Of a DNA stretch of 50,300 nucleotides, positions 7,371 to 28,754 are shown piece by piece. Source of the DNA: Deltaproteobacteria bacterium (GTDB lineage: Bacteria > Desulfobacterota > Syntrophia > Syntrophales > Smithellaceae); NCBI GenBank assembly GCA_025361065.1, contig JANYAY010000175.1, positions 1-50,300 of the forward strand, given 5' to 3'. The notes beneath the pieces were generated by a model. The model was given only the letters and a program-made list of their open reading frames with translations. It did no database searches and was not told the DNA's origin. Positions within the stretch are counted from its first letter, which is position 1. Each line of letters begins with the position of its first letter. The position numbers and the translations under genes were made by a program.

Positions 7371-7405
7371 AAATTATTTCTCCTTAATGGATCTGTAATA
7401 ATATT

Positions 7406-10462: not shown

Positions 10463-10528
10463 TTGGCCAAAATCCTCCTTAAGAAATGATCATGCTCTTT
10501 TGAATGAAATGCATGATGGGCAATAGCT

Positions 10529-10912: not shown

Positions 10913-10948
10913 CGGCGGTTCCTCCTTTTATTCTGGTTCATAAAGAAA

Positions 10949-11470: not shown

Positions 11471-12019
11471 TTAAGCTTCAGGCTTTATTTCGCTAAAACC
11501 TTCTTCTAAAACGCCCCGAATATACTTCAATATTTCAGGATGATTAATGGGTACATCCTCGATTTCTTTACGTATTATTCTGGTGTCCAATTCCGACCGC
11601 CGGTCATTATGCCTGTGTTTTAAAAAAAAATCAACATCTGAATTACCGGCAATAAGAACAATTAGCGTACTGATGATATTACCCATGGGTTGTCTATCCA
11701 TGTGACTGAGGCCGAAAGTTGCTTTAACAGTTGTTCCCTTACCCTCTTGAGATTCCAGTTTAAAATGACCACCGGCTCTTCGGGCGGCATCAGCCAGCAG
11801 TGGAATGCCCAGGCCGAAGCGCCGGACAGTTTTTGTCGTATAGAAGGGATCTAAGACTTTTTCCATCTCTTCTTGTTTCATCCCGCGACCATTATCGATG
11901 ATCTCTATGGAAAGAGAATCATTGGCCGTATCTTCATCGATATCGATTTCAATTAAACTGGCGCCGGCACGAACAGAGTTTTCGGCAATGTCCAGAATAT
12001 GTGATGCCAGTTCCAGCAT
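11471..12019 (-). CDS. HATPase-domain (histidine-kinase-type ATPase) protein associated with hydrogenase
   Basis: ASHILDIAENSVRAGASLIEIDIDED...DNGRGM...FYTTKTVRRFGLGIPLLADAARRAGG. ORF track starts at 12181; internal ATG at 12019 is the likely start because the extension overlaps the PHP gene end and a hairpin region. Confidence 0.8.
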   Translation of the reverse strand: MLELASHILDIAENSVRAGASLIEIDIDEDTANDSLSIEIIDNGRGMKQEEMEKVLDPFYTTKTVRRFGLGIPLLADAARRAGGHFKLESQEGKGTTVKATFGLSHMDRQPMGNIISTLIVLIAGNSDVDFFLKHRHNDRRSELDTRIIRKEIEDVPINHPEILKYIRGVLEEGFSEIKPEA

Positions 12020-12146
12020 TATTAGTGAAACTCCAATTCTGAAAGCGCAGCGCAGCGGAATTGGTAAGTTGAACAATCCCGCAAAGCGGAGGGTATGACA
12101 CCCCGCAACTTGCTGCTGAATATGTTTCCTAAACTTACTTTGGGGT
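12020..12146. repeat. Hairpin-rich intergenic element between the PHP and HATPase genes
   Basis: Nested inverted repeats: CCAATTC...GAATTGG, GCGGAGGGT...ACACCCCGC, TAAGTT...AACTTA. Confidence 0.45.
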
Positions 12147-12896
12147 TCATACCTGTGGCTGCTCCATGACGTAACGGCCATTTTGCCTTTTTAAAGCCAT
12201 TTTTAATTCGGAAAATGTTGGTTCCAAAAGATTTATTCGGGTAAATGTCTTTCCGATATCTTTGATAAAATGAGAGTCTGAAGAAATGATAAACGGAAAT
12301 TTACCCAATTCCGAATATTTAATTCTGGCCTGGTCAAAACCGGTGAGAGGTGTTATCTCGAGAGCGTCAAAATCAGCATTATCATCGATGAAGCCAAGCT
12401 GACTCAGCACACTAAAGCTTTCCCGGTCTATATGTGCGGCAATGGCCAGCCCGCCAAATAGATGAATATAGCCAATCAGAGTATCCAGGGATAAATTCGT
12501 CGCGCCGATCAGTAATTGGTTATTTATCCCCTCTACCTCACCAATTTCATTGACGATAGCCTGAACACCAAAACGCTCTTCATCATTTTCTCCTGCAAGA
12601 TTCCGGTCAATTATATTTTGCAGCAATATCAGGTTGGACAGGGAATCGAATATGGCCAGGAGGTGCACTTCTTCACTGGTTGTGATCTCCATGCCGGGAA
12701 GAACACTCAGATTAGTTGTTTGCGCGGCTTTGATTACGTAAGGAACGTTTGCTGAAGAATTATGATCGCAAATGGCAATCATGTCGAGCTTTGCTTCGAC
12801 GGCTTTTTGCACTAAAGCCATAGGGTGCATATCAAGCTCGGCGCAGGGTGAGAGGCAAGTGTGGACATGCAGATCGCAATTGAAAACTTTCAGCAT
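12147..12896 (-). CDS. PHP-domain phosphoesterase
   Basis: CDLHVHTCLSPCAELDMHP...AICDHNSS...GMEITTSEEVHLLAIF...SDSHF: PHP metal-binding motifs. Confidence 0.85.
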   Translation of the reverse strand: MLKVFNCDLHVHTCLSPCAELDMHPMALVQKAVEAKLDMIAICDHNSSANVPYVIKAAQTTNLSVLPGMEITTSEEVHLLAIFDSLSNLILLQNIIDRNLAGENDEERFGVQAIVNEIGEVEGINNQLLIGATNLSLDTLIGYIHLFGGLAIAAHIDRESFSVLSQLGFIDDNADFDALEITPLTGFDQARIKYSELGKFPFIISSDSHFIKDIGKTFTRINLLEPTFSELKMALKRQNGRYVMEQPQV

Positions 12897-12964
12897 TGTT
12901 CTTTCCGGAATTACGCAAAAAAAATGACCATAAATTTTATGGTCACGGAAGTGGTTGCACGGAA

Positions 12965-13306
12965 TTAATCTTTTTTCTCCAGGAGATTATAGATTTTACC
13001 GGTTAACTCAAAAGCAGGCAAGTTGGATACCATTATTGGTATTTTTTCCTGACTGGCTTTTGCCAAAGTATCCTGAGTTGGTTCGCAGGAATTAATCAGA
13101 ATAATGCCGGCGTGGTCTTTCAGGCTGGCGACGGCGACGATATTCTGGTGAACCTGTCTAGTTATCCAGATATTTCCTTCGTGGGAATTGGCCATAACTT
13201 CGCTTAAAAGGTCCCCCGTGTAACCACCGGTGACATTATTTTTAAGATTCTCCGACGCACATCTGACTTCTAAGCTCAATTCTTGGACTATTGTTGCTAA
13301 ATTCAT
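12965..13306 (-). CDS. DRTGG-domain-like small protein
   Basis: 113 aa; EVRCASENLKNNVTGGYTGDLLSEVMANSHEGNIWITRQVHQNIVAVASLKDHAGIILINS resembles DRTGG-type domains found beside hydrogenase clusters. Confidence 0.65.
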   Translation of the reverse strand: MNLATIVQELSLEVRCASENLKNNVTGGYTGDLLSEVMANSHEGNIWITRQVHQNIVAVASLKDHAGIILINSCEPTQDTLAKASQEKIPIMVSNLPAFELTGKIYNLLEKKD

Positions 13307-13337
13307 TTTAATACCTGAAAGAAGAATTCTGCCGTCT

Positions 13338-13790
13338 TTATTTCTTTATATTTATCGTCATTAAAAGACGTGTGCCTTTGCCTAATTCCGATGAAATAAT
13401 GAACGCGTCGGAATAGCTTTTGATATTATAGAGCCCCATACCGGCGCCAAAACCCATTTCACGAATTTTTTGATTGGCCGTAGAGTAACCTTGCTGCATA
13501 GCCTGATCAATATTGGGAATTCCCGGACCCTCATCAATAACTTCAATCTGAACAGTATCAGGGTTGATCGTTAAATTAACAACACCTTTCCGGGCGTAAG
13601 AGACCACATTTATTTCCGATTCGTAACAAACAATGGCACATTTCCGAACTACGTCGCCGGGAAAATCCATTTGCTTGAGAATGGATTTTATGCTTGTAGA
13701 CACTATCCCGGCGTAATTGAAATTGCCGCCTTCTATATAAAAGCTCCGTTGATAAGAAATATGATCAGTTTCTGGCACTGGCATTGTCAA
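13338..13790 (-). CDS. Anti-sigma-factor-type ATPase (RsbW/RsbT-like HATPase_c_2)
   Basis: CYESEINVVSYARKGVVNLTINPDTVQIEVIDEGPGIPNIDQAMQQGYS...GFGAGMGLYNIKSYSD: N and G boxes of an RsbT-like kinase. Confidence 0.85.
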   Translation of the reverse strand: MTMPVPETDHISYQRSFYIEGGNFNYAGIVSTSIKSILKQMDFPGDVVRKCAIVCYESEINVVSYARKGVVNLTINPDTVQIEVIDEGPGIPNIDQAMQQGYSTANQKIREMGFGAGMGLYNIKSYSDAFIISSELGKGTRLLMTINIKK

Positions 13791-14139
13791 CTTTTTCTAC
13801 ACAACCAACCATCCCTTTCGCGTAAAGCCGTCCTGCGGTTTCAAAGAGAATATATTTGGTTGACAGTATGGGAATTTTCAGCTCTTTGGCCAAATTGATA
13901 GTATCGGTATTGGCTCTTTTGCCTCTAACCAGGACTATTGCCGCAATATCAAGAATGTCGGCGGTGCGAATCACCTGATCGTTAGTCAAACCGGTCAGCA
14001 GAATACTGCCGGCTTTAGCGAAGGCCAGAACATCACTCATTAAATCAGCCCCGAAAGCTGTCTTCACTTCCATATCCAGTTTGTCGTCACCGACTATGAC
14101 GTCGGCGTCAAGAATTTCTTTTACATCGCGTAGTTTCAA
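13765..14139 (-). CDS. DRTGG-domain protein
   Basis: KLRDVKEILDADVIVGDDKLDMEVKTAFGADLMSDVLAFAKAGSILLTGLTNDQVIRTADILDIAAIVLVRGK; DRTGG-like fold pattern. Overlaps the next gene by 26 nt. Confidence 0.7.
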   Translation of the reverse strand: MKLRDVKEILDADVIVGDDKLDMEVKTAFGADLMSDVLAFAKAGSILLTGLTNDQVIRTADILDIAAIVLVRGKRANTDTINLAKELKIPILSTKYILFETAGRLYAKGMVGCVEKVDNASARN

Positions 14140-14493
14140 AGGTTACTCCTCAGTCAATCGGCAGATAAGTTATTATACGTTTTGGGAAAACTTAATTTGA
14201 TGTCCATATCTTTGTGAAACTTACCTATTATCTAACATGCCTGATAATTTTATGTCAATAAGATAATCCAGGCAATGGACATGATTATTTTACCGCAGTA
14301 ACATCGGAGATATGGACATTTTAGGTAGGAAGAAGGAATAGATGGTAGAGAGGATCAATAAAATTGAGGATTGCAAATTTCGGAATTCGCACGATCAACC
14401 TTTAAATACATATAGTTTTAAGCTTTTTATTTGGTGAAGAAAGTGTTATTTCTACAAGGATAATGATTGAAAGTTCAAGGAGGATATAATCAT

Positions 14494-15015
14494 TTGCACG
14501 GGCTGGAGTTAAGGGAAACCAATATTATTCAGATAGTTACAGAGAGTTTGGCGAGATTGTCTCATCATGATAATATTGTCGTCAGGATGAAATCTTCTCT
14601 GGACGATGAAAAGGTATGGATCGACCGTGAACAAATAGGAACTGCTTTTTTTGATCTGGAGCAAAACGCCGTCGAGGCTATGCCGGATGGAGGCACATTA
14701 ACCATTATGCTTGAGGGTGATGAACGGCAGGTATTGATCACCCTGACCGATAGCGGGGCAGGTATTGCCGAAGAAAATATCCCTCTTCTTTTCACGCCTT
14801 TTTTTACCACCAAACCGGTTGGCGACGGAACAGGATTGGGCCTGCCGCAGGCCTTTGCAGCCATCAAAGCTCACAGCGGTAATATTAAAATTGAATCCAA
14901 TGCTAAACCGACGAAAGGGCCGACCGGCACCACCGTCAGAATAACGCTCCCCAGGCGGCAGGTGTTACAGGACAAACAGGCAAAGTTTATACTGCATGAG
15001 GAAGAGGGAGAATAG
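14494..15015 (+). CDS. Orphan histidine-kinase catalytic (HATPase) domain protein lacking a DHp/H-box
   Basis: FFDLEQNAVEAMPDGG...LTDSGAGIAEENIPLLFTPFFTTKPVGDGTGLGL. TTG at 14494 has AAGGAGG upstream (14477-14483); the ORF track opens at 14467. Confidence 0.75.
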   Translation: MHGLELRETNIIQIVTESLARLSHHDNIVVRMKSSLDDEKVWIDREQIGTAFFDLEQNAVEAMPDGGTLTIMLEGDERQVLITLTDSGAGIAEENIPLLFTPFFTTKPVGDGTGLGLPQAFAAIKAHSGNIKIESNAKPTKGPTGTTVRITLPRRQVLQDKQAKFILHEEEGE

Positions 15016-15208: not shown

Positions 15209-16384
15209 TTAGATTCTTTCCACTGTCACAATCTTATTCCGGGCATTAAGATCGGATACCAGTTCCCGTATATAGCCCATTCTCATCGGTTCACCCCGGA
15301 TAAGGTCGGCAACCTGATTGGGGTTAATTGCTGTTCCCACAATCAGGTTAATGTCATCGGCTTCCAGAAAATATCGGGCAAGGCGGGTGGCGGCATCGTT
15401 GTCTTTGGGTAGATCATGAATCGTCCTGGCGCCGCGCATAATCTCCAATGCCTGACCGATGGTTAATATGCCTTCCGTTACCAGGTCGATGCCCTTGATC
15501 ACGGCGGTGGGTGGTGAGCCCTTTTTCTTAGGCTCTTCACTGGTTCGCATCCACGGAGGAATCCATTCCACTTCCAGTTTTTCCTTGAGAACACGTGCCG
15601 CCATTTGGGCCGTACTGCCGCCGCAGATAATTTTAGCTCCTTCGGCGGCCATCAGGCGGGAGACCGCAAACTCGTCCATATCTTTGTTGGTGGGGGGGCC
15701 GGTCAGCACACAAACGGAGATTGCCGGACGTACTTTCATGCAGATGACGGTAGCGTCATCACCCGGCTTGTCATTATAGAGTTTCAAGCAGGTTTTAGAC
15801 ATTGCTTCCGTAAGCTTTACGGTATCAACGCCGGTTTGCACGAAACGCTGCACCGCAGTAGCTACGTTTTTCCATCCCCAACCCAGGCGGTAAATACCGC
15901 CCAACCCGGCGTGTTCATAGCCATCGCTGACTAAAACCATGTAGTCGTTATCCCGGAGTTGAAAATGTGCCTCCTTGATTATTCTGCCTTTGACCTGACG
16001 TTCTTCTACGGGAATGGTGACGATTGCGTTGTCGCGAATGAGAATTAATGGCGGGGAATCAAAAAGGACGATATGGGCGTCGCGTCCATTGTACACGATC
16101 AATACGGCAAAAGTGGCATATGCCAGTTTACGGACAGAGCATTCCGGAAGGGTCTCGACAAGTGTTTGCATGACGTCTTCCACCGTGCCGTCGGCTTCAA
16201 ACATCCGTGCAGCGATTTCAGCGGTGAGCGACGACAGAATGCTGGCTTTAACGCCGCTGCCCAGACCATCGGATAAAACAGCAACAAAAGAATCCGGCTT
16301 AGTGCGGATCATAACCGAGTCACCGCATAATTCCTCGCCGGCTTTATTCAGGCTGACCCAAGTGCATGCGACAAGCTGCCTCAC
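15209..16384 (-). CDS. SpoIIE/PP2C-type serine phosphatase linked to sensory hydrogenase
   Basis: FVAVLSDGLGSGVKASILSSLTAEIAARM...MVLVSDGYE...DDATVICMKVRP: PP2C/SpoIIE metal motifs. Start overlaps the end of the next hydrogenase gene (4 nt). Confidence 0.88.
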   Translation of the reverse strand: MRQLVACTWVSLNKAGEELCGDSVMIRTKPDSFVAVLSDGLGSGVKASILSSLTAEIAARMFEADGTVEDVMQTLVETLPECSVRKLAYATFAVLIVYNGRDAHIVLFDSPPLILIRDNAIVTIPVEERQVKGRIIKEAHFQLRDNDYMVLVSDGYEHAGLGGIYRLGWGWKNVATAVQRFVQTGVDTVKLTEAMSKTCLKLYNDKPGDDATVICMKVRPAISVCVLTGPPTNKDMDEFAVSRLMAAEGAKIICGGSTAQMAARVLKEKLEVEWIPPWMRTSEEPKKKGSPPTAVIKGIDLVTEGILTIGQALEIMRGARTIHDLPKDNDAATRLARYFLEADDINLIVGTAINPNQVADLIRGEPMRMGYIRELVSDLNARNKIVTVERI

Positions 16385-18102
16385 TTCGATCCTTCCTCTT
16401 CCAGCAGTTTCGCCAGATGCAAGACAATCATTTTACTTTCCGCAGTTGTCTCCCCTAAAAGATGCGCTATCTCATGAGCCACCCGCATTTGTTTTTGCAC
16501 CACTTCGCGGGTTTGTTCGAGCGTTTTTGCCCGCAGTTCCAGAAATTTCTGTTTTTCCGTCTCATGCTCTGTGATGTCGCGCATAATGGCTACCAAAAGT
16601 GATTGCCCTTCCACACGGACAATGTTCAGCTCCGCAACGAGATGATCATTGAGACGCCGGACTTTTGCGATCACGGGAACTCCCGTGTCCCACACGGAGA
16701 CGAAATCGTCATAGAGCGGAATCAGCCGGGAGAGGTGTTTGCCCTTAACATCCGCAAGCGAACAGCCAAAGAGTTGTTCGGCCGAGGGAGACATGTCCTG
16801 AATGCCGAGGTGATCATCAAGAATGATAATACAATTCGGAGATACATCCATGACGACCTGGCGCAGGGATTCGGAACGGCGGCGCATATAGGGAATGCAC
16901 ATGGTGACTTCGGCCATGCCGCGCAAAGTGGCGACGGCTTTTTCACGACAACTGGAATAACCGCAGGCACCGCAGTTGAGTTCGTCATCCGGCGTGTATT
17001 TATTGACGCGATGCAGCACTTCCTTAATCTGTTCTTCGCTGAATTCAGGGATAGGCTCCTTTTTATCGGTGTATGTACGGTATAGATCCGGCCAGTTATT
17101 GCGTGGGGGTATTTCATAAACCGGCCGATTCCGCTGATAGTCAATGATTCTTCGGCGGGCCGCATAAATGCCTCCTGCCAGATCGGCCATGGCCGGGCCG
17201 TTAATACAACCGCCGGTGCAGGCCATCAATTCTATCAGAGATGCATTTAGCCGGCCGGCGCGGATGTCACCCAGAATATTCCGGCATGTTTCCAGACCAC
17301 TGGCTACAACCAGTTCGTGATTCAGCATATCGGTGCTCAACGCCGCTGCGCCGATCAGGCCTCCTTCCAGGGGAAATAAACGTGCGTCCATTTGGGTGGA
17401 TGAAGATTCCATTATGCCGTCGACCTTCTGAAAAGTGATCCCCGCTTCATTAAACCAGTTGGCAAGACCGTGGAATGTCATCACCGCCGAAACCGAGTCT
17501 GCTATGGCCGAATCCCGGATCTCCATTTTTTTTGCGATGCAGGGACCGATAAAAACAATATAAGCGTCCGAGCCGTATTTTTGAGTCAGCCAACGGCTAT
17601 GAGCGATCATTGGCGATACGATCGGTGCCAGATGAGGAATCAAGTCGGGATAATATTTTTCGATCAGATTGACAAGAACAGGGCATGAAGAGGTGATTAC
17701 CGGACATTTCTGAGGCATTTTTTCGATGTATTCCCGGTGGGCCAAACCGACCATTTCTGCCCCAAGGGCGGTTTCCTCCACGGCAAAAAATCCCAGCTTT
17801 TTGAGTGCCGCTTCCATTTCGGAGAAATGGCGGAAGTTGAAATATGCGGGTGCGGAAGGGGCGACCGAAGCGATGAGCTTGCGTCCGTCTTTCAGCGCCT
17901 GTTTGACATCCGGTGTCGCGCTTTGGACGTCCTTGGCTTTTTGCGGACAGGTGCGGATGCACGTTCCGCATACAATGCACAATTCCGGCACTACCTGGGC
18001 CTGGCCGTCGTGAACTCGAATAGCTTTGACGTCGCAATGGCGAACACACCGGTAACAATCGCGGCAGCGGGCCGGGTTGGTGATGATGACGGGTTCGTTC
18101 AT
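16381..18102 (-). CDS. Sensory-type (group C-like) [FeFe] hydrogenase with 4Fe-4S and PAS domains
   Basis: N-terminal CRDCYRCVRHC, CIVCGTCIRTCP; diverged H-cluster motifs ITSSCPVLVN, GPCIAKKME, MACTGGCINGPAM; C-terminal CGACGYSSCREKAVA and PAS (VMDVSPNCIIILDDHLGIQDMSPSAEQLFG) plus helical tail. Confidence 0.88.
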   Translation of the reverse strand: MNEPVIITNPARCRDCYRCVRHCDVKAIRVHDGQAQVVPELCIVCGTCIRTCPQKAKDVQSATPDVKQALKDGRKLIASVAPSAPAYFNFRHFSEMEAALKKLGFFAVEETALGAEMVGLAHREYIEKMPQKCPVITSSCPVLVNLIEKYYPDLIPHLAPIVSPMIAHSRWLTQKYGSDAYIVFIGPCIAKKMEIRDSAIADSVSAVMTFHGLANWFNEAGITFQKVDGIMESSSTQMDARLFPLEGGLIGAAALSTDMLNHELVVASGLETCRNILGDIRAGRLNASLIELMACTGGCINGPAMADLAGGIYAARRRIIDYQRNRPVYEIPPRNNWPDLYRTYTDKKEPIPEFSEEQIKEVLHRVNKYTPDDELNCGACGYSSCREKAVATLRGMAEVTMCIPYMRRRSESLRQVVMDVSPNCIIILDDHLGIQDMSPSAEQLFGCSLADVKGKHLSRLIPLYDDFVSVWDTGVPVIAKVRRLNDHLVAELNIVRVEGQSLLVAIMRDITEHETEKQKFLELRAKTLEQTREVVQKQMRVAHEIAHLLGETTAESKMIVLHLAKLLEEEGSK

Positions 18103-18416
18103 GATAAGCCTTCCTTTCCCGAGGAGGGCAGTGCGGCGGAATCATCGACAATGCGCGACGCAAATTTGTTGTCAACCCGGGTGAGAACTTTCTCGTAAAA
18201 GAAAGATTCCGCCTGTGCAGGGCTGATGCCGCTGAATTCCTGGTCGCCCACGCGCACGGAAACTCCTTTGGAGCAGGTATCCATGCAGAAGGCGCCGACA
18301 ATATCGACAAGCCCTTCGAGTTTTTCTTTTTGAATCAGACGGAATAATTCCGACGCCAGTTCATCAGAGCCGCGCAGGCTGCAGGAGCTGCCGACACAAA
18401 TTGTTATTATGAGCAT
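18099..18416 (-). CDS. (2Fe-2S) thioredoxin-like ferredoxin protein
   Basis: MLIITICVGSSCSLRGSDELASELF...GAFCMDTCSKGVSVRVGD: C-x4-C and C-x3-C pairs. Overlaps the sensory hydrogenase start by 4 nt. Confidence 0.82.
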   Translation of the reverse strand: MLIITICVGSSCSLRGSDELASELFRLIQKEKLEGLVDIVGAFCMDTCSKGVSVRVGDQEFSGISPAQAESFFYEKVLTRVDNKFASRIVDDSAALPSSGKEGLS

Positions 18417-18417
18417 T

Positions 18418-21400
18418 TTATTTTCCAGCTTCTTCCGCCGGGATTATCGGCAGCAGATGGGCATCAATAAAATCTCCCACCTGATCGATATTTTCCACGG
18501 GAATTATTTTATTACCGATTGCCACATTGGGTCCACCCTCACACTGTCCGGTACAGAAACGTGCCTTGATGCGGAAATGTTGAGCAATTCCCCGCTGTCT
18601 CAGTTCTATGGCTAATCCTTCCAGCAGCTTCCAGGAACCCTTGATGTAGCAGTTGGTTCCGATGCACACTCCAACATCGACTACCGGTAAGGATACCACC
18701 GGTTCTTCCTTAACGTCCTGCATGCGCATGGAGCGGCGCTTGTAGGTCGTATGGAGAGCGTGGTGTGACATTTCGCTGTCCGGCTCGCCCAGCCAGTTCG
18801 TGTAAATATCCTGAACGGAAGTGTTATCCTGGCTGGTGCGGATGGGCGCATCCTGATCCAGTCGATAGAGGACTTCCAAGCGGTGTTCCGTATCGCTTTG
18901 CAAAAGTGGCGCAGGATTGCCGGAGCCGTTGATGCAGCCGCCGGGACAGGCCATGACTTCAATCAGATCATAAGGAGCGTCGCCGTCTCTCATCCGGTCG
19001 ATCAGCCTTTGAGCGTTTTGCAGGCCACTGACTACTGCCAGGCGCACTTGGGAATCACCAAGAGTGATGATTGCTTCTTTTACGCCCTGAAGACCGCGGA
19101 CGGCTTCATAGGCGAAGCTTTCCATCCGTTTGCCCATAACGCGTTCCGCAGCCAAGCGCAGCGCGGCTTCCGCGACGCCGCCGCTGGCACCGAAAATAAT
19201 CCCTGCGCCGGACACTTTGCCGAAGAAAGCATCCACCGGCACAGGTGTAATTTTGCGCGGATCGATGTTTTTTTCGCCAAGCATAGTCATTACATCCCAG
19301 GTCGTCAGTACGCGATCGACATCCTGAATATTATCGGTTTTGAACTCGGGGCGCATAGACTCATATTTTTTGGCGTTACAGGGCATGATGGATACAAAAT
19401 AAAGAAATTCCGGCCGCACCTTGAGCTGTTTGGCGAAGTATTGTTTCATCACCGCGCCGAACATCTGCTGCGGCGATTTGCAGGAAGATAAATGCGGCAG
19501 GAGATCCGGCGCCATTTTTTCGCAGTAATTTACCCAGGCCGGACAACAGGAGGTAATCTGAGGCAGAACACCGCCTTCAGCCACTCTTGACAGGAATTCC
19601 GTGCCTTCTTCCATAATGGTCAGATCGGCCGCCCAGCAAGTATCAAAAACAAAATTAAATCCCAGTTTCTTTAAACAGGCACTCAAAACCGGCATGACTT
19701 CGGCGCCGTTGATACCGTATTGTTCAGCGAAAGCGGCACGCACGGCCGGAGCGATCTGCGCGACGACGGTCAACTCGGGATCTTTCAGAGCCCTGTAAAC
19801 ATCGGGCAGCGTCGGTTTCAGGGTCAGTGCGCCGGTAGGACAAACCATAGCGCAGTGGCCGCAGGCCACGCAGGCGGTCATGTCCAGTGGGCGATGGTCG
19901 TTGGGGCCGATGGTCAGAACATCATTGGTTTCATAGAAGCTCAGCGCCGAAGCGCCTTCCATTTCCCGGCATACTTTCAGGCATAGTCCGCACAAAATAC
20001 ACTTGCCGGAATCCCGTATAATGATGGGGTGGTTTTCATCAATGGGCAGAGGCTTGGCCGGTTGTGTTGGATCATGCTCGACGCCATACTCGCTGGCGTA
20101 GTTGCGCAGCTCGCAATCATAGCGTTCCGTGCAGCCGCAGGCAATGCAGCGGGAGGCTTCCGCCATCGCTGTGTCGTGATCCCATGTTGTGGAAGATTCG
20201 CCGAAATTTGTTTTTCTGGACTTTGCCGCCAGAACCGGCACTTCCTGACGAGGGGACGGGTTGATACCCCGGAAAGTTTCCGGCGGCAATTCCTTCCAAC
20301 TGCCTTTAGTGCAGGTATAGGGGTCGGCCTTTGCGGTGACGGAGCCTATGCGCACAAATTCATCCATCGATTCTGCGGCGAGCTTGCCGGCGCCGATGGC
20401 GGCAATGGCGATATCCGGGCCGGTAACGCAGTCACCGCCGGAGAAAACCCAGGGCAAGGCTGTTTGCATGGTTTGCTGATTGACTAGGACATTGCCCCAT
20501 TTGTCAATTAATGTCTTATTTTCAATACAAGAACCGTCAACCGCCTGGCCAATGGCGGAAATAATAGTTGTCGCTGCGAGCACGAACTCAGAACCTTCCT
20601 GAGGCAGGGGACGACGCCTTCCGCTCTTGTCCGGTTCACCCAGTGCCATTCGGACGCAGGTCAGTTGCAGTGCTTCGCCCGACGACGTGATGGAAACCGG
20701 TGCGGTGAGATACTGCATGTTGACGCCTTCCTCAATGGCTTCTTCAATTTCTATATCCTGGGCGGGCATTTCCTGACGGGTGCGGCGATAGGCGACAATA
20801 ACGTCTTTGACGCCCAGACGGACAGCGCTCCGCGCCGCATCCATGGCCGTGTTACCACCGCCGATGACGATTACTCGATTGCCCAGTGCAGGTTGTTCAC
20901 CCCGTGCGAGCTTTGCAAGAAAATCAAGGCCGGACAGGACGCCTTGGGCGTCTTCGCCTTTCGCACCAATGGCGGTCGCTTTTTGCGCGCCCAGTCCCAA
21001 AAAAACAGCTTCAAAGCCGTCTCTTTTGAGTGATTCCAGTGTAAAATCCCGTCCCAGTCTTTTGTTATAGTTAATAGTGACGCCCAGATCAAGTATAGCC
21101 TGAATTTCCGCGTCCAGGTCTTTTTCGGGCAGCCGGTAATAAGGTATGCCCCAGCGCAGCATGCCGCCGGCCGCTTCCTGCATCTCAAAAATATTGACGG
21201 TGTGACCCCTGCGGCGTAAAAACCAGGCGGCGGTTAAACCGGCCGGACCCGCTCCGATGATTGCAATTTTCTTTCCAGTATCCGGCAAACACACGGGACG
21301 ATAGTTATCGGACTGGTATAAGTTCCAGTCGGCAACGAAACGTTTGATGCCGTTGATGTTGACGGCGCCGTCCAGGGCGCTGCGGCGGCAATCCGTTTCA

Positions 21401-21852
21401 CAGGGATGAGGGCACACGCGTCCGCAGACGGCGGGCAGGGGATTGCTGTCCTTGATTACCGCGAGAGCCTCCGTAAAATTGCCGCAAGTGACATGATAAA
21501 TGTATTTCTGAATGTCAATATGCGCCGGGCAGCGTAAAACACAGGGCGCGACACAGTCGCCATAATGATGGCGCAATAGAGCCTGAAGGTAAATCTTTCG
21601 ATAGCTTATGAGTGCTGCGGATTGAGTGCGTATCACCATGCCGTCGGCAACCGGCGTGGATGTCGCCGATACAAATCTGGTTTTGTCGCCGTCGGCTACT
21701 TCCACAAATGCGGCTTCAAAGTTACTTGGAGGGCTGACGCGGGGATCATATCCCAAAGCGGGAATGTCTATTCCGGAAGAACGGGCAGTGTCTATAATCG
21801 TCAAACCGGCTGCTGTTACACAGTCTTTTCCGTCGATATTTACTGTAATCAT
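18418..21852 (-). CDS. Multidomain [FeFe] hydrogenase: 2Fe-2S + GltD/NfnB-like FAD/NAD(P) domain + HydA H-cluster domain + NuoE-like 2Fe-2S tail
   Basis: GAGPAGLTAAWFLRRRGH and GGGNTAMDAARSAVRLG (GltD); H-cluster motifs TSCCPAW, MPCNAKKYE, EVMACPGGCINGSGNP; C-terminal GVCIGTNCYIKG...ARFCTGQCEGGP (2Fe-2S thioredoxin-like). 1144 aa uninterrupted. Confidence 0.92.
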   Translation of the reverse strand: MITVNIDGKDCVTAAGLTIIDTARSSGIDIPALGYDPRVSPPSNFEAAFVEVADGDKTRFVSATSTPVADGMVIRTQSAALISYRKIYLQALLRHHYGDCVAPCVLRCPAHIDIQKYIYHVTCGNFTEALAVIKDSNPLPAVCGRVCPHPCETDCRRSALDGAVNINGIKRFVADWNLYQSDNYRPVCLPDTGKKIAIIGAGPAGLTAAWFLRRRGHTVNIFEMQEAAGGMLRWGIPYYRLPEKDLDAEIQAILDLGVTINYNKRLGRDFTLESLKRDGFEAVFLGLGAQKATAIGAKGEDAQGVLSGLDFLAKLARGEQPALGNRVIVIGGGNTAMDAARSAVRLGVKDVIVAYRRTRQEMPAQDIEIEEAIEEGVNMQYLTAPVSITSSGEALQLTCVRMALGEPDKSGRRRPLPQEGSEFVLAATTIISAIGQAVDGSCIENKTLIDKWGNVLVNQQTMQTALPWVFSGGDCVTGPDIAIAAIGAGKLAAESMDEFVRIGSVTAKADPYTCTKGSWKELPPETFRGINPSPRQEVPVLAAKSRKTNFGESSTTWDHDTAMAEASRCIACGCTERYDCELRNYASEYGVEHDPTQPAKPLPIDENHPIIIRDSGKCILCGLCLKVCREMEGASALSFYETNDVLTIGPNDHRPLDMTACVACGHCAMVCPTGALTLKPTLPDVYRALKDPELTVVAQIAPAVRAAFAEQYGINGAEVMPVLSACLKKLGFNFVFDTCWAADLTIMEEGTEFLSRVAEGGVLPQITSCCPAWVNYCEKMAPDLLPHLSSCKSPQQMFGAVMKQYFAKQLKVRPEFLYFVSIMPCNAKKYESMRPEFKTDNIQDVDRVLTTWDVMTMLGEKNIDPRKITPVPVDAFFGKVSGAGIIFGASGGVAEAALRLAAERVMGKRMESFAYEAVRGLQGVKEAIITLGDSQVRLAVVSGLQNAQRLIDRMRDGDAPYDLIEVMACPGGCINGSGNPAPLLQSDTEHRLEVLYRLDQDAPIRTSQDNTSVQDIYTNWLGEPDSEMSHHALHTTYKRRSMRMQDVKEEPVVSLPVVDVGVCIGTNCYIKGSWKLLEGLAIELRQRGIAQHFRIKARFCTGQCEGGPNVAIGNKIIPVENIDQVGDFIDAHLLPIIPAEEAGK

Positions 21853-22014: not shown

Positions 22015-23019
22015 TCAACTCAAATAATCTTCATACCCTTGAGTCAGATAAAATGTTGCCAGATCAAAAAAGATAGTCATTCGTCTTTGCATTTCAAAGG
22101 TCATGTAAAGGTCAATATTTTTACGCCAGCCGTCCTGATGTATTCCTATTTCCCATATGTGTTTACGGATGAGGCTGAGCGCGCTCAGCGCTGCACTGAG
22201 CTTGAAGCCTTCTTTTCTTCTTTCCCGGCCAAGTTTTATGTAAAAAGTTTTCAGGTGATTTATGTCATATAAACCTTCCAGCCAGAGAATGATTTGGGAA
22301 ACGATTTTATCACCAATGCTAAACAACCTTTTGCGGTCATATTTGTGGTATTCAGCGGTGGAATTGCTGTTCGCTACATCTTCTATCCAGCTGCAGATAA
22401 TGTCTTCTTTATTCTTCACGATGATTTTGACCAGGCGCCGGGTCAGGGCATTTTTTGCAACATCCGGCTTTTGCGAATTTTTATCGGCCTGCTCCAGGGA
22501 ATCCAGAATAGCCCAATAATCTTTTTTGCTTTTTATATAAGCATTAAGTGCCCGACGATTCGGCCGGAAAGCTAATAAGGGTATTTTCCCCACGGGCCAA
22601 AATTCCGCATTAGCACTATCATCACCGGCTGCAAGCTTTCCGCCGGTTTGTTCCACCACAAAGGTCAAGAAAAGCAAATCTCCGTAAAATCGGCTTTTGT
22701 AGGAATCGACATCGAGCAGACGGAGTATTTTCCCTTTAATGCCGGTCTCTTCTTCCAGCTCGCGCAGAGCCGCATCTTCAATGCTTTCGCCGGCCTCGGC
22801 AAATCCGGTTGGCAGACACCAGTGACCTTTAAAGGGCGCCCGGTCGCGCTTAACCAGAAGAATTTGGCGCGAGGAATCCAGAATAGAGGAAACAACCGGC
22901 AGGGGATTTTCATAAAAAAACGACTGGCACGAAGGACAAAAATCTCTCAGAACATTATCTTCAAACTTCTTGATAAGGCCATCACTGCAATATAAACAAA
23001 ACTGGCGTTGCTTTTTCAT
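22015..23019 (-). CDS. NUDIX hydrolase with N-terminal zinc ribbon and C-terminal RsbRD_N-like helical domain
   Basis: CLYCSDGL...FCPSCQSFFYENP; NUDIX box GFAEAGESIEDAALRELEEETGI; C-terminal IICSWIEDV...FYIKLGRERRKEGFKLSAALSALSLIRKHIWEI resembles RsbRD N-terminal domain. ATG at 23019 overlaps the upstream stop. Confidence 0.85.
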   Translation of the reverse strand: MKKQRQFCLYCSDGLIKKFEDNVLRDFCPSCQSFFYENPLPVVSSILDSSRQILLVKRDRAPFKGHWCLPTGFAEAGESIEDAALRELEEETGIKGKILRLLDVDSYKSRFYGDLLFLTFVVEQTGGKLAAGDDSANAEFWPVGKIPLLAFRPNRRALNAYIKSKKDYWAILDSLEQADKNSQKPDVAKNALTRRLVKIIVKNKEDIICSWIEDVANSNSTAEYHKYDRKRLFSIGDKIVSQIILWLEGLYDINHLKTFYIKLGRERRKEGFKLSAALSALSLIRKHIWEIGIHQDGWRKNIDLYMTFEMQRRMTIFFDLATFYLTQGYEDYLS

Positions 23020-23912
23020 AAGAGGTCCTTTGACTCCAGAGGTTGGGAACAAATGAAAATTGCGTCGTCCTTGCACATTGTGATGCCGCTCGTTTCGGCA
23101 CCTATATCTTGCAACTTGTGTAAAAGCTTATCGACGATATTTTTTTTGTGGGCTCTCGTTCCGGCAAGAAAAAAAGCACTTTTAAACTGATAATAATCCA
23201 TAAAGAAATATATGTCCCACGGCTGGAAGATAAGCGAATTTTTAAAATCAAATTTCCGGATGTGACCAAAAAATGGGCTGAGCATCTTTTCGCCGTTTTC
23301 GGCTGAAAACTGCCGAATGATGACCTCTATAGGCAGGAGCTGATTGTTCATGAGCAGTTGATATTCTTCCAGAGTATTTCTGGTGATGGTAATCAATTCC
23401 TGCATATTGCATTGATCATGAGTAATCGTGATAAAGGTTCCGTCTTTTTGCAGAATACGGGATATTTCCGGTATCATGTCGACAAAAAAATAAAGAGCAA
23501 AGCTGCAAATGACCAAATCAAAAGAAGCAGGCGGGTATTTTTTGATCAAATGAACGCCTGCTGACGAAAATGTCCCCTGGTAGCCCGCCCGTTTGCATGC
23601 CTCCAGGAAAAAAGGTTCGTATTCGGCAATGATATCCATACCGGTGATTGTTGCCTCCCGGTGCAGCCGTCCTTTCAAGGCTTCCGTAAACGCGCCAAAG
23701 GCGCAACCCATCTCTAAAACATTGCGGCAGTTGGAGAGATCAACCTGATTCAGGGCCGTAAGGCGAATATCCTCTTTGTTTGACGAGAATTGACGAATGA
23801 GCATCTCAATATGCTGATGCTTTTGCACATTGCGAAAAACCTGACGAATCTTTTTTTTGTCGAGAAAATCAGCCATGTTTGTTTTTTGTCCAACTTTCTT
23901 TACAAAACTCAT
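23016..23912 (-). CDS. SAM-dependent class I methyltransferase
   Basis: NVLEMGCAFGAFTEALKGRLHREATITGMDI (motif I) and FDLVICSFALYFFVDMIPEISRILQKDGTFI. Confidence 0.8.
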   Translation of the reverse strand: MSFVKKVGQKTNMADFLDKKKIRQVFRNVQKHQHIEMLIRQFSSNKEDIRLTALNQVDLSNCRNVLEMGCAFGAFTEALKGRLHREATITGMDIIAEYEPFFLEACKRAGYQGTFSSAGVHLIKKYPPASFDLVICSFALYFFVDMIPEISRILQKDGTFITITHDQCNMQELITITRNTLEEYQLLMNNQLLPIEVIIRQFSAENGEKMLSPFFGHIRKFDFKNSLIFQPWDIYFFMDYYQFKSAFFLAGTRAHKKNIVDKLLHKLQDIGAETSGITMCKDDAIFICSQPLESKDLL

Positions 23913-23950
23913 GGTCTTGAACCGGTATGAATCGGCGTATAAAAGAAATA

Positions 23951-24637
23951 TCAGGCCAGTCTTCTTGCGCCCCGGGCCAGATCAGCCAGCCCCTGTTCAT
24001 TCAGAATCAAAATAGAGCGTGTAGTGACTTTAATTAGTTTTTCATCATTCATTCGTTTTAATATGCGGGACAAGGTTTCGGGAATCGTTCCCAGCAGACC
24101 GGCCATCTGATTTTTAGAGATGTCCAACTTGACGGTGGCGGAATCGTCGTTATGTTCATACAGATAGAGCAGATAAGCGGCCAGTCTTCCCGGCACTTCT
24201 TTGAGGGATAGGTCTTCCACAAGCGAAGCGAGCTTGCGCAGCCGCAGTGATAGAAGCGCCAGCATCGAAAGAGCCAGCGACGGTTCGCGACTGATTACCT
24301 CGACAAATTTCAGCCGTGGAAAAAAGAGAGAGCGCGTTTCCACGAGAGCCTGGGCGGACGCGGGATAATGTTCTCCGGCGAAAACGGCCGCTTCGCCAAA
24401 TGGTTCATGCTCTTCCAGGATATGAAAAATCTGTTCCTTACCTTCGGATGAGAGTTTGAAAATTTTTACTTTTCCGGAAAGGATGACGTAAAAGCCGATC
24501 CCCTCATCGCCTTCGTAAAAAAAGCTTTGTCCCCGCGAGAAAGTCCGGCAAACGGCAATGGCGCCCAGGCTTGCACATTGCATTGGCGTCAGGCCTGCAA
24601 AGAGAGGAATTGAGGCGATCGTTTGAGTCATATCCAT
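23951..24637 (-). CDS. Crp/Fnr-family transcriptional regulator
   Basis: cNMP-binding fold (FFYEGDEGIGFYVILSGKVKIFKLSSEGKEQI...GEAAVF) and HTH MAGLLGTIPETLSRILKRM; divergent from hcp. Confidence 0.9.
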   Translation of the reverse strand: MDMTQTIASIPLFAGLTPMQCASLGAIAVCRTFSRGQSFFYEGDEGIGFYVILSGKVKIFKLSSEGKEQIFHILEEHEPFGEAAVFAGEHYPASAQALVETRSLFFPRLKFVEVISREPSLALSMLALLSLRLRKLASLVEDLSLKEVPGRLAAYLLYLYEHNDDSATVKLDISKNQMAGLLGTIPETLSRILKRMNDEKLIKVTTRSILILNEQGLADLARGARRLA

Positions 24638-24673
24638 AATTTATTTCCTTGAAAGAAAAAATAACACTGATGT

Positions 24674-24687
24674 TTGACTTAAGTCAA
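24674..24687. promoter_or_regulatory. Crp/Fnr-superfamily-type palindromic site in the crp/hcp intergenic region
   Basis: Perfect 14-nt palindrome TTGACTTAAGTCAA (TTGAC-N4-GTCAA). Confidence 0.7.
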
Positions 24688-24764
24688 GGCGCAACTCTCA
24701 ATATTCGTTCATATTGCCGGACAAAAGACGGTACAAAAAAATATAAATACAAAGGAGACAATCA

Positions 24765-26408
24765 ATGGAGAATTTAGCAATGTTCTGTTACCAGTGCGAA
24801 CAGACGGCGAAGGGAGAGGGATGCAATAAGTCAGGGGTGTGCGGCAAGGACCCGGAAGTTGCCGCCCTTCAGGATGTTCTGGTTTACGCACTTAAAGGAT
24901 TGTCGGCGGTAGCGGTGGATGCAAGGATCGCCGGTATTGTCGATCATGAAATTGATGTCTTTACAATCAAAGCGCTTTTTTCGACCCTGACCAATGTGGA
25001 TTTTGACCCGGCGCGTTTTGTTTATCTGATCAAACAATGCGTCAAGCTGCGCGATGCCCTGACAGGCAAAGTCAAAAAAGCCGGTGGACATGTCGATGAG
25101 AAAACGGCAGCAATTATTTTTCAGCCGGAAACGACGATTGCGGGACTGGTCGGGCAGGCAAAAGTCGCATCGTTTAAGGTGGAAACGGCAATAAATCCCG
25201 ATATTCAGTCCCTTCAGCACATCTTGCTTTTCGGAGTAAAAGGTGTGGCTGCCTATGCCGATCATGCTCAAATTCTGGGACAGGAAGATGACAAAGTATA
25301 TGCATTTATCCATGAGGCGCTCGCCGCAATGTTGCGCACTGATCTGACTCTTGATCAGGCGCTTGCGCTGGTTTTAAAATGCGGTGAAATCAACCTGCGC
25401 ACCATGGAACTTCTGGATGCGGGAAACACAACTACTTACGGCCATCCGGTGCCAACAAAAGTGCCCCTGGGTGTGAAGAAAGGCAAGGCTATCCTGATTT
25501 CCGGTCACGATCTGAAAGATTTATCGGAACTCCTGAAACAAACACAAGGGAAGGGGATAAATATTTATACCCATGGCGAGATGCTTCCGGCGCATGGTTA
25601 TCCCGAACTGAAGAAATATCCGCATTTGTACGGGCACTATGGAACGGCCTGGCAGAATCAGGCCAAAGAGTTTGCGGAATTTCCCGGCGCGATTCTCATG
25701 ACCACCAACTGCATTCAGAGACCGCGTGATGCTTATGCGGCTAATATCTTTACTTGTGGTCTGGTGGGTTGGCCGGGTGTTCCGCATATCGCTGGGGCCA
25801 ACTTTGAACCGGTAATTCAGAAGGCACTGGAATTGCCTGGGTTTTCCGCCGATAAGGAAGGGAAGTCGGTGATGGTGGGATTTGCCCGCAATGCCGTTTT
25901 AGGCGTGGCCGATCAAGTAATCGCTGCGGTGAAAGGGAAGGCCATCCGCCATTTCTTCCTGGTTGCCGGTTGTGACGGAGCCAAGCCCGGCAGAAATTAT
26001 TATACGGAATTTGTGGAAAAAGCACCGAAAGATACGGTTATTCTGACTTTGGCCTGCGGGAAGTTCCGCTTTTTTGATCAGGAACTGGGGGATATCGGTG
26101 GCATTCCTCGCCTTCTCGATATCGGACAGTGCAACGATGCTTATTCCGCCATCCAGATTGCTCTGGCTTTATCCAAAGCTTTCAATGTGGGAGTTAACGA
26201 ATTGCCACTTTCCATGATTTTATCCTGGTACGAGCAAAAGGCAGTGGCTATATTACTGACGCTGCTTTATCTCGGCATTAAGGATATTAGATTAGGGCCG
26301 TCTCTTCCGGCATTTATTACTCCTAATGTATTGGATGTGTTGGTGAAGAATTTTGCCATCAAACCGATTACGACACCGGATGAGGATCTGAAAGCCATTC
26401 TGGGATGA
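24765..26408 (+). CDS. hcp: Hydroxylamine reductase / hybrid-cluster protein
   Basis: MFCYQCEQTAKGEGCNKSGVCGKDPEVAALQD N-terminal cluster motif; TTNCIQRP, GCDG and FGVGVNELPLS-type segments. Confidence 0.95.
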   Translation: MENLAMFCYQCEQTAKGEGCNKSGVCGKDPEVAALQDVLVYALKGLSAVAVDARIAGIVDHEIDVFTIKALFSTLTNVDFDPARFVYLIKQCVKLRDALTGKVKKAGGHVDEKTAAIIFQPETTIAGLVGQAKVASFKVETAINPDIQSLQHILLFGVKGVAAYADHAQILGQEDDKVYAFIHEALAAMLRTDLTLDQALALVLKCGEINLRTMELLDAGNTTTYGHPVPTKVPLGVKKGKAILISGHDLKDLSELLKQTQGKGINIYTHGEMLPAHGYPELKKYPHLYGHYGTAWQNQAKEFAEFPGAILMTTNCIQRPRDAYAANIFTCGLVGWPGVPHIAGANFEPVIQKALELPGFSADKEGKSVMVGFARNAVLGVADQVIAAVKGKAIRHFFLVAGCDGAKPGRNYYTEFVEKAPKDTVILTLACGKFRFFDQELGDIGGIPRLLDIGQCNDAYSAIQIALALSKAFNVGVNELPLSMILSWYEQKAVAILLTLLYLGIKDIRLGPSLPAFITPNVLDVLVKNFAIKPITTPDEDLKAILG

Positions 26409-26815: not shown

Positions 26816-27970
26816 ATGATTAATCAAAAATACAGAGTAATAATACTTGGTGCCGGGTTCTCGAAATCGGCCGGTATCCCGCTTGCCGATGAGCTTTGGC
26901 GCGAAATACTTGTTCAGAGTAAGTCACTTTGGGGGCGAGCAAGCAAGTTTAATGATGATCTTGACAAGTATATTTCATGTTGACGAAAATGCGACGACGT
27001 GGAACTCACGAGAGATACCGTTAATTTTGAAGAGTTCCTAGGCTTTCTCGACATTGAACACTATCTCGGTCTAAGAGGTCCAGACACTTGGAGTAGAGAT
27101 GGCAATGAGAGACAAGTAGTTGTAAAAACATTGATTGGAGAAATACTATCGCAATATATGCCCCCATCGAATGCGCTCCCAGAACTATATCTAGAATTTG
27201 CCCGCCGCCTTCAACCTCATGACTATGTTTTAACATTTAATTATGACATTCTGCTTGAACGAGCACTCGATGCAGTTAATAAGCCATATAGGTTATTCCC
27301 TGATCGGTATGAATCATTCGGACGGAATATCGGATTTGTAGATTCAAACAAAGATGAAATAGTTATCCTGAAATTGCATGGTTCCATTGATTGGTTTGAC
27401 AAGAGTGGGTATTTAGAGATGGAGAAAGATTTCAAGGAACAGGGAGCCACAATTTTACCGACGCACCCTGTATTTAACAGCAATTTCGACTGGGGGATAA
27501 GTAGAGTCCTTGATGGACCAAGGAGAGCAAATGATCCTCTTCAAAATATGCATAGAGTCGCCGATATTGAAGGTCTTTATAAACAACAAATCTTGTTTTC
27601 GGCAACCCCCTGGATGCTCTCCCCTTCTACTAACAAAATCATTTATGCAAGCCCACTTGAAGAGTTTTGGGACGGGCTCGGTAGATCTGGATGTACTAAT
27701 TTTGGTATGGCAATTATCGGATACTCACTCCCAAGTCATGATCATTATGCAAGGCAAGCCATCTATTCAATAGTAAAAAACTATCAAGAGGTAAACTGGG
27801 GTGAAGATTTTTTCGGCTTCAAAAAGACACCACTGGTGTTAATAGATCACAGGACTACTCCTGAAAGTGTTAGAGATTTTAAAAACAATTACCGATTTAT
27901 TGATTTTGACAAGTCTATATTACACATGGATGGACTTGATGCAGTAGCCATTGACAAAATATTCAATTAA
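26816..27970 (+). pseudogene. SIR2-family (SIR2_2-like) protein interrupted by an in-frame TGA at 26981
   Basis: Frame from ATG 26816: MINQKYRVIILGAGFSKSAGIPLADELWREILVQSKSLWGRASKFNDDLDKYISC-TGA-RKCDDVELTRDTVNFEEFLGFLDIEHYLGLRG...LTFNYDILLERAL...ILKLHGSIDW; both halves lie in the same frame. Confidence 0.75.
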
Positions 27971-28065
27971 GATGATGGCAAATCAGGCAATACAGCCGAT
28001 CGCTACGCTCCGGCTGATTTCTATCTTGAACTAGAATCAATCATAATAAATTTCATGGATTGATC

Positions 28066-28081
28066 ATAGCATATATGCTAT
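28066..28081. promoter_or_regulatory. Perfect palindrome upstream of the HigBA-like operon (candidate autoregulatory operator)
   Basis: ATAGCATATATGCTAT, ending 9 nt before the GTG at 28091. Confidence 0.5.
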
Positions 28082-28090
28082 AAGACTCAC

Positions 28091-28429
28091 GTGAATTGGA
28101 CAATAACTTACTATAGCGAATCGCTTCAGAACGAAATACTTGATTTACCTGCTGGCTTTCTTGCTCGTTTCCTTAGATATACCGATCGTATGGAGTTATA
28201 TGGTCCTGATTTAGGAATGCCCCACACGCGGGCGATGGGTGAAGGGTTATTTGAATTACGATTAAAAGCAGCAGAGGGCATTGCGCGGGTATTCTACTGC
28301 ACGATGATTGGCAAAAGGATAGTGATGTTGCACCAGTTCATTAAAAAAACGGACAAAACACCGCCCAAAGAACTTGCCATAGCAAGGCGGCGGTTGAAGG
28401 AGATCAATGCTCACTCACAAAGAACTTAA
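28091..28429 (+). CDS. RelE/HigB-type toxin (phage-derived Gp49-like family)
   Basis: WTITYYSESLQNEILDLPAGFLARFLRYTDRMELYGPDLGMPHTRAMGEGLFELRLKAAEGIARVFYCTMIGKRIVMLHQFIKKTDKTPPKELAIARRRLKE. Confidence 0.9.
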   Translation: MNWTITYYSESLQNEILDLPAGFLARFLRYTDRMELYGPDLGMPHTRAMGEGLFELRLKAAEGIARVFYCTMIGKRIVMLHQFIKKTDKTPPKELAIARRRLKEINAHSQRT

Positions 28430-28754
28430 GGCTCGCGCCCTTAAACGCGCGGATGTAAAATCTGAATACGATCAGCTTGACAAAGAATTTGCTTTTCTTG
28501 ACGAATTTCTCAAGGCACGTTCTTCCGCCGGCATCACTCAGGCGGAAGTTGCCGAACGTATCGGAACAACTCAATCAGCGATTGCTCGTTTGGAGTCCGG
28601 CAGCGGAAAGCACTCTCCATCTCTGGCAACATTACAAAAATATGCACATGCGCTTGGTTGCCGTCTGGAGTTACGCTTAATTAATGAAATGATACACATA
28701 AACAGGGAAGGTCGAACAACACGTTCCACCGGACGCACTAAAGCTCGTCGGTGA
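28407..28754 (+). CDS. XRE-family HTH antitoxin (HigA-like)
   Basis: RSSAGITQAEVAERIGTTQSAIARLESGSGKHSPSLATLQKYAHALGCRLEL; overlaps the toxin end by 23 nt. Confidence 0.9.
   Translation: MLTHKELKARALKRADVKSEYDQLDKEFAFLDEFLKARSSAGITQAEVAERIGTTQSAIARLESGSGKHSPSLATLQKYAHALGCRLELRLINEMIHINREGRTTRSTGRTKARR

Follow-up and report, generated by a model that had tools for sequence, protein, structure and literature searches.

A GltD–HydA–thioredoxin fusion in a Smithellaceae genome, probably a self-contained NADP(H)-linked [FeFe] hydrogenase

Positions 1 to 50,300 of contig JANYAY010000175.1, from a deltaproteobacterium of the Smithellaceae (assembly GCA_025361065.1, 3.95 Mb, 97% complete), form the window analysed here, and within it a single gene encodes a 1144-aa protein, P0001, in which a GltD-type module for flavin adenine dinucleotide (FAD) and NADPH is fused to a HydA-type catalytic part and a C-terminal thioredoxin-like (Trx) domain. 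Judged from its sequence, P0001 is likely to be a self-contained, reversible, non-bifurcating NADP(H):H2 oxidoreductase, that is, an [FeFe] hydrogenase. In the path that we propose, NADPH would bind the GltD module and pass a hydride to the FAD, from which electrons would leave singly through two GltD-type [4Fe-4S] clusters (C104/108/147/151/155/569/572 and K170), then a His-ligated [4Fe-4S] cluster (H96/C100/C574/C580) and a ferredoxin-like dicluster (C618–C671), to reach the H-cluster (C770/C825/C969/C973), where H+ would be reduced; in the reverse direction, H2 would reduce NADP+. The N-terminal 2Fe-2S port, which in StnC lies on the route to the flavin mononucleotide (FMN) module, would have been removed, and the C-terminal [2Fe-2S] domain retained as a side port. 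The proposal draws on sequence, domains, ligands, conservation and gene order, from which cofactor occupancy, NADP preference, electron path, direction and the lack of bifurcation are predicted.

The gene is an uninterrupted open reading frame (ORF) of 1144 codons at exactly 18418–21852 on the minus strand (21852→18418), in agreement with the frame described in an earlier, sequence-only reading of this DNA; a plus-strand reading of the same interval contains many stops and was discarded. The frame opens with an ATG at 21852, and directly 5' of it stands AAGGCAAGA, a stretch resembling a ribosome-binding site. That GltD, HydA and Trx parts belong to one polypeptide, as had been proposed, is supported by the order of Pfam and NCBIfam domains, by matches to solved structures and by a family alignment of 28 sequences (P0001 and 27 relatives, 66–90% identical to it), to which all counts out of 28 given below refer.

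From the N-terminus, residues 1–95 (21568..21852, minus strand like all parts of the gene) have a [2Fe-2S]-ferredoxin fold (Fer2_4 match at 1–78) without its four cluster cysteines. Residues 96–155 (21388..21567) carry H96 and C100, the first half of the His-ligated [4Fe-4S] site, and then the iron–sulfur cysteines of the GltD/DPD_II type, C104, C108, C147, C151 and C155, with Lys170 next; the DPD_II/Fer4_20 match spans residues 100–178. The GltD FAD/NADPH double Rossmann module lies at residues 191–505 (20338..21282; Pyr_redox_2 at 195–489), with the motif GGGNTAMD...YRRTRQEMPA and with R240, R356 and R357 in 28/28 sequences. At residues 568–580 (20113..20151), which read RCIACGCTERYDC, C569 and C572 complete the GltD clusters, and C574 and C580, found in the alignment also in HydA proteins that lack GltD, complete the His-ligated site. 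The remainder of the chain comprises the [4Fe-4S] dicluster at residues 618–671 (19840..20001; C618/621/624/628 and C661/664/667/671; Fer4_7, with a dicluster profile match at about residues 617–677), the [FeFe] H-cluster domain at residues 695–976 (18925..19770; C770, C825, C969 and C973; PF02906, E 1.4e-88), exactly where a match from the protein's own genome falls, a Fe_hyd_SSU match at residues 989–1040 and the thioredoxin-like [2Fe-2S] domain at residues 1059–1129 (18466..18678; C1063/C1068/C1100/C1104). Apart from the N-terminal four, every cofactor ligand of P0001 is present in all 28 sequences. The complete H-cluster domain and the C-terminal 2Fe-2S thioredoxin fold of the sequence-only reading are thereby both upheld; for the latter, the PF01257 score of 23.0 bits lies just below the Pfam cut-off of 24.8, the four cysteines are invariant, and the alignment to T. 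maritima HydA extends to residue 1124.

The third H-cluster motif, EVMACPGGCINGSGNP, does deviate from the usual CxGGCxxGGG, as had been noticed, and the exchange of G for S is invariant among the relatives (S977, 28/28) with both cysteines intact, so that its interpretation as the mark of a dead or odd H-cluster is unsupported. At the same site, a divergent second fusion, L061, has GAG. Among the hydrogenase profiles, P0001 passes that of [FeFe] hydrogenase group A (TIGR02512, 458.9 bits against a cut-off of 405.95) and falls below those of the NADH-dependent A6 type (NF040763, 607.5 against 765) and of the clostridial ferredoxin hydrogenase (NF040762, 457.7 against 900).

Because H96, C100, C574 and C580 match the ligands of the His-ligated [4Fe-4S] cluster in HydA proteins without GltD, the 473-residue GltD module can be described as an insertion between the second and third ligands of this cluster, an arrangement that would wire the FAD towards the H-cluster. 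C104, C108, C147, C151, C155, C569 and C572, together with K170, fit two GltD clusters, and these cysteines are conserved in StnC-like proteins too; C143, not conserved in StnC-like homologues, was ruled out as a ligand. Lys170 is present in all 28 sequences, and its equivalence to K170 of StnC in the alignment points to the same role as a ligand. R240 sits at the position of NfnB R201 and StnC R239.

The two halves of this chain have separate structural relatives. P0001 aligns over residues 2–679 with the NADPH subunits of NfnABC/StnABC (9bov_A, 645 bits, 46% aligned identity; 8oh5_C, 570 bits; 9n5u_A, 517 bits), and the closest solved relatives are thus of the StnC/NfnABC type, not the NfnB of NfnAB. 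Over these residues the StnC/NfnA subunits of Sporomusa ovata (8oh5_C), Caldicellulosiruptor saccharolyticus (9bov_A) and Thermococcus sibiricus (9n5u_A) have the same module order as P0001, and StnC and P0001 have in common the ferredoxin fold, the GltD inside the His-cluster motif, the return motif CxxCxCxxxxxC and the dicluster (PMC10482914; PMC7483475), as well as the Lys170 ligand position and an Arg near the FAD. P0001 hence shows the trait of the Stn family, a NuoG-like subunit with an inserted GltD and a Lys at the FAD-proximal cluster, where the presence of the Lys was scored and its bond is taken by analogy. It differs from StnC in lacking the N-terminal 2Fe-2S cysteines and in its C-terminal part, which is an active-type [FeFe] H-domain plus a Trx domain as against the inactive FdhF-like domain of StnC. 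No StnA or StnB genes stand next to the fusion in the loci examined, the adjoining genes being those for a 105-aa Trx protein, HydS and a PP2C-type phosphatase, or unrelated.

Residues 574–1041, in turn, match group-A HydA (8a6t_A, 435 bits). P0001 shares its His-cluster ligands, dicluster, H-cluster motifs and small-subunit (SSU) domain with C. pasteurianum CpI and with the HydA subunits of the trimeric bifurcating [FeFe] hydrogenases from T. kivui (8a6t_A), A. woodii (7q4v_A) and T. maritima (7p5h_A), and T. maritima HydA likewise has a C-terminal 2Fe-2S domain; unlike the trimeric HydA, P0001 carries GltD in-chain, without the FS2 cysteines and without a dedicated NuoF/NuoE. Since the StnC-type and HydA alignments share residues 574–679, the cluster chain would be continuous from the FAD to the H-cluster, and since they overlap on the His-ligated cluster and the dicluster, both halves of the wire are present in known structures: in StnC, adjacent clusters lie 9–18 Å apart from the FAD to the dicluster region, and the HydA and CpI structures show the path from the His cluster to the H-cluster. 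An AlphaFold model of P0001 from a deeper alignment (mean predicted local distance difference test, pLDDT, 83; predicted template modelling score, pTM, 0.76), which replaced a first model with a poorly modelled dicluster (pTM 0.58), can be superposed on 9bov_A (686 columns, 3.2 Å) and on 8a6t_A (471 columns, 2.6 Å). These comparisons make it unlikely that the GltD FAD is too distant from any cluster for electron exchange.

The exception to the conservation of ligands is the N-terminal domain, where none of the 28 family sequences has a Cys at the four ligand columns (query positions 34, 45, 48 and 64), whereas a Cys is found there in 28/28 non-gapped controls (StnC-like proteins, HydA and the second fusion L061). 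An invariant G34 stands where the first [2Fe-2S] cysteine stood, and the domain itself is retained at a mean identity of 73% in the family. Of the 2Fe-2S N-terminus claimed earlier, the fold thus stands and the cluster does not, and an N-terminal 2Fe-2S electron port in P0001 is ruled out by the missing cysteines. In stand-alone HydA the corresponding cluster is thought to serve as a ferredoxin port; in StnABC the equivalent one lies on the path from the FAD to the FMN subunit. Since L061, which has kept the cysteines, groups with the P0001 family against the StnC-like proteins in a tree of the N-terminal domain (support 97/96), loss of the cluster probably postdates the fusion. The 9bov row of this tree was transcribed by hand from the alignment, with a small copying error, and the H-domain tree gives L061 no firm place (80/21).

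Several points weigh against a self-contained, non-bifurcating enzyme. Type 2 Bfu enzymes without the A3 cluster of BfuA still bifurcate, feeding BfuBC via A4 (PMC9304861), so that, with A3 taken as the equivalent of the N-terminal cluster, which is our own reading of that label, the loss of this cluster alone is no proof of independence. The His-ligated cluster of P0001, equivalent to A4 and hence to the proposed exit to BfuBC in FeFe-Bfu enzymes (PMC9304861), is intact. A NuoE/Trx/NuoF–GltD/HydA gene cluster lies nearby on the same strand, in the window and in several relatives, and NuoF genes occur elsewhere in genomes whose fusion is monocistronic. The cofactor specificity of hydrogenases cannot be read from sequence alone (PMC3561251), and the preference of P0001 for NADP over NAD comes from motif resemblance only, by which the NADP(H) linkage suggested earlier is plausible; the distances from FAD through the clusters to the H-cluster are likewise those of homologues only. 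Finally, the invariant C-terminal 2Fe-2S domain implies a further redox partner, of which the favoured reading makes no use.

The intact His-ligated cluster and the nearby NuoF genes would both be accommodated if the fusion took part in bifurcation in trans: it would dock, as one more BfuA subunit, on a NuoE/NuoF core such as the NuoE–Trx–NuoF–GltD set found 8 kb downstream, and would couple H2, NADPH, NADH and/or ferredoxin. We regard this as unlikely, since the core in the window has its own HydA, the cluster that leads to the FMN subunit in StnABC is lost in 28/28 sequences, and neither NuoE nor NuoF neighbours the fusion in L048, L050, L051, L053, L054 or L055, or at the second fusion L080. 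In its own genome there are only two NuoF genes, each with its own NuoE and BfuA-type partner, and neither is an orphan wanting a catalytic subunit. Gene content thus supports the suggestion that no NuoF is needed.

Bifurcation at the GltD FAD itself, within one polypeptide, was the hypothesis of the sequence-only reading, which argued by analogy with NfnB; electrons of NADPH would be split between the H-cluster and a second acceptor, either ferredoxin or the C-terminal 2Fe-2S domain. P0001 and NfnB do have in common the GltD fold, two [4Fe-4S] clusters, the FAD and the NADPH site, the invariant R240 is at the position of NfnB R201, and the C-terminal domain could form a second branch. NfnB, however, needs NfnA as its high-potential branch, and P0001, with an H-cluster domain attached, has no NfnA-like partner in its unit, the NfnA-like gene of the genome belonging to an NfnAB pair with its own adjoining NfnB on contig C46; moreover, a single cluster chain leaves the GltD module. 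At the cluster beside the FAD, the whole family has the Lys of StnC in place of the Glu of NfnB, and the structure and mutants of StnABC assign bifurcation to the FMN subunit and leave the GltD FAD non-bifurcating in spite of the same Arg (PMC10482914). With StnC-type proteins as the closest solved relatives, the analogy with NfnB finds no support, and bifurcation at this FAD appears very unlikely. The more specific scheme of one-chain bifurcation or confurcation, in which NADPH at the GltD FAD would serve one branch through the internal clusters to the H-cluster and another through the C-terminal [2Fe-2S] to ferredoxin or the 105-aa protein, with neither NuoF nor NfnA, seems highly improbable.

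One could also speculate that P0001 is an NADPH- or H2-driven reductase for another acceptor, in which electrons exit by the C-terminal 2Fe-2S domain and pass to the 105-aa Trx protein and the HydS–phosphatase pair, making the enzyme part of a redox-signalling relay as well. The invariant C-terminal ligands and the presence of the translationally coupled 105-aa 2Fe-2S protein and the HydS/PP2C genes in 17/25 loci are consistent with this, but relatives without Trx/HydS neighbours still keep the C-terminal domain, HydS enzymes own an H2-sensing H-domain that makes an electron feed unnecessary, and the Trx domain is among the least conserved in the family (mean identity 66%, compared with 84% for the H-domain). 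We therefore give such a relay little credence.

For the favoured NADP(H):H2 oxidoreductase, the energetics can be estimated. With cofactor potentials from PMC10482914, NADPH at −370 mV balances about 1 kPa H2, and NADH at −280 mV about 1.3 Pa (calculated for 37 °C and pH 7), so that a syntroph living at a few Pa H2 could release H2 from NADPH without bifurcation. If the reading is correct, the enzyme would offer syntrophs a way, free of bifurcation, to shed NADPH electrons as H2 at pressures of up to about 1 kPa, and a bifurcating scaffold would have been made non-bifurcating by the loss of one cluster and a changed partner domain. P0001 would also, among NADP(H)-linked [FeFe] hydrogenases, have the simplest make-up seen in this analysis, a single gene providing flavin entry, wire and H-cluster without an FMN subunit; one-gene NADPH-to-H2 enzymes are wanted for cofactor recycling.

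The nearest described category is HydDB group A2, named '[FeFe] glutamate synthase-linked (putative)', with its role given as undetermined, and defined by GltD in the downstream protein (PMC5037454); dimeric NAD(P)H-dependent [FeFe] hydrogenases have been listed by Carere et al. (PMC3561251). As in P0001, HydA is there functionally linked to a GltD-type NAD(P)H module and not to NuoF, but the GltD of group A2 belongs to the downstream protein and that of P0001 to the hydrogenase polypeptide; the protein just downstream of P0001 is the 105-aa Trx-like 2Fe-2S protein, and not one with GltA or GltD. The fusion would, if our reading holds, offer a testable single-protein answer to the role of GltD-linked (group A2) enzymes. 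No description of a characterised GltD–HydA fusion, or of GltD inside HydA, was found in the open-access papers searched, subscription journals and supplements being beyond reach. Each module is known already; their combination, the place at which GltD is inserted, the missing N-terminal cluster and the encoding in one gene set P0001 apart as a variant.

The full-length architecture is found in 18 of the 155 genomes of the class, its own included, as 19 full-length copies. Altogether, 25 named loci carry the fusion, one of which ends at a contig edge, and the carriers are mostly Smithella, Syntrophaceae, Syntrophus, Syntrophorhabdus and deltaproteobacterial metagenome-assembled genomes (MAGs); with these loci coming from independent assemblies, a chance or assembly fusion is ruled out. 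Beyond the class, the phylum sample yielded one orthologue at 68% identity and the divergent second fusion L061 at 45%, the rest being StnC-like over residues 1–680 only. This second fusion (L061/L080; a 1189-aa ORF at L080:3872–7441) is monocistronic and keeps the N-terminal 2Fe-2S cysteines with an incomplete C-terminal Trx set, the mirror image of the cluster loss in P0001. L043, a fusion of 76% identity with genes for Trx, HydS and phosphatase beside it, occurs in a MAG labelled Spirochaetes, which may reflect gene transfer or mis-binning.

In the window, the fusion heads a four-gene unit on the minus strand (15209–21852). A gene for a 105-aa thioredoxin-like [2Fe-2S] protein, identified by its sequence and a weak nuoE_fam match (18099..18416), starts 1 nt after the fusion stop; its own stop is overlapped by 4 nt by the start of a gene for a HydS-type sensory [FeFe] hydrogenase with a PAS domain, HfsB-like by domains (PF02906, FeS, PAS) and synteny (16381..18102), and a SpoIIE/PP2C-type serine phosphatase, HfsC-like by PF07228 and synteny, completes the unit (15209..16384). 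This order is found in 17/25 loci, which thus have, as does the window, the traits of an hfs-type operon: a catalytic [FeFe] hydrogenase, a PAS-containing HydS and a serine phosphatase. The hfsABCD operon of Thermoanaerobacterium (HydA2/HydS of Ruminococcus albus) likewise joins a hydrogenase, a PAS-HydS sensor and a SpoIIE/PP2C phosphatase (PMC11837493), but HfsD is described as ferredoxin-linked (PMC11837493), whereas the catalytic gene here is the NADPH-module fusion, upstream of the sensor. In Thermoanaerobacterium, deletion of HfsB deregulates the hydrogenase system (PMC5707799, PMC11837493). Sensor genes of the hfs kind suggest that H2 exerts control, and the place of the fusion in such an operon, with Trx, HydS sensor and phosphatase, makes it probable that H2 or redox state adjusts its use.

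The absence of NuoF claimed by the sequence-only reading is correct for the four-gene unit and not for its surroundings, as the same strand carries a NuoF–GltD fusion 8 kb further downstream, within a cluster spanning 5610–11446. In this gene (7406–10462, minus strand) a GltD FAD/NADPH module takes the place of the C-terminal ferredoxin domain of NuoF, and the gene clusters with genes for NuoE, a small Trx protein and HydA (5610–7370, 10529–10912 and 10949–11446, minus strand). The protein corresponds to the 'sub-type I BfuB' described in silico for Hydrogenedentota (PMC11406978), and the cluster may encode a putative NADH/NADPH/H2 enzyme. Elsewhere in the genome (L085; contig C47:19000–31000), genes for NuoE, NuoF (637 aa) and a HoxU-like 237-aa protein come right after those for a 2-oxoacid:ferredoxin oxidoreductase, in an order resembling the predicted Por-Bfu arrangement. 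Of the maturation genes, hydF is in the window (2884–4140), and HydG and HydE-like genes are on contig C12. An aspartate ammonia-lyase gene (4140–5519, minus strand) separates HydA from hydF, an order kept in L056.

Between the two hydrogenase clusters, at 11471–14139 (minus strand) and 14467–15015 (plus strand), lies a regulatory cassette conserved in several relatives, with DRTGG, HATPase (anti-sigma/kinase-like) and PHP domains and a divergent histidine-kinase ATPase fragment. Upstream of the fusion, a block at 22015–26408 encodes a Crp/Fnr regulator, a methyltransferase, a NUDIX protein and a divergent hybrid-cluster (prismane) protein, and is conserved beside the fusion in close relatives. 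Further on, at 26999–28754 on the plus strand, a gene for a SIR2-like-domain protein is followed by a Gp49/HTH pair resembling a toxin–antitoxin module.

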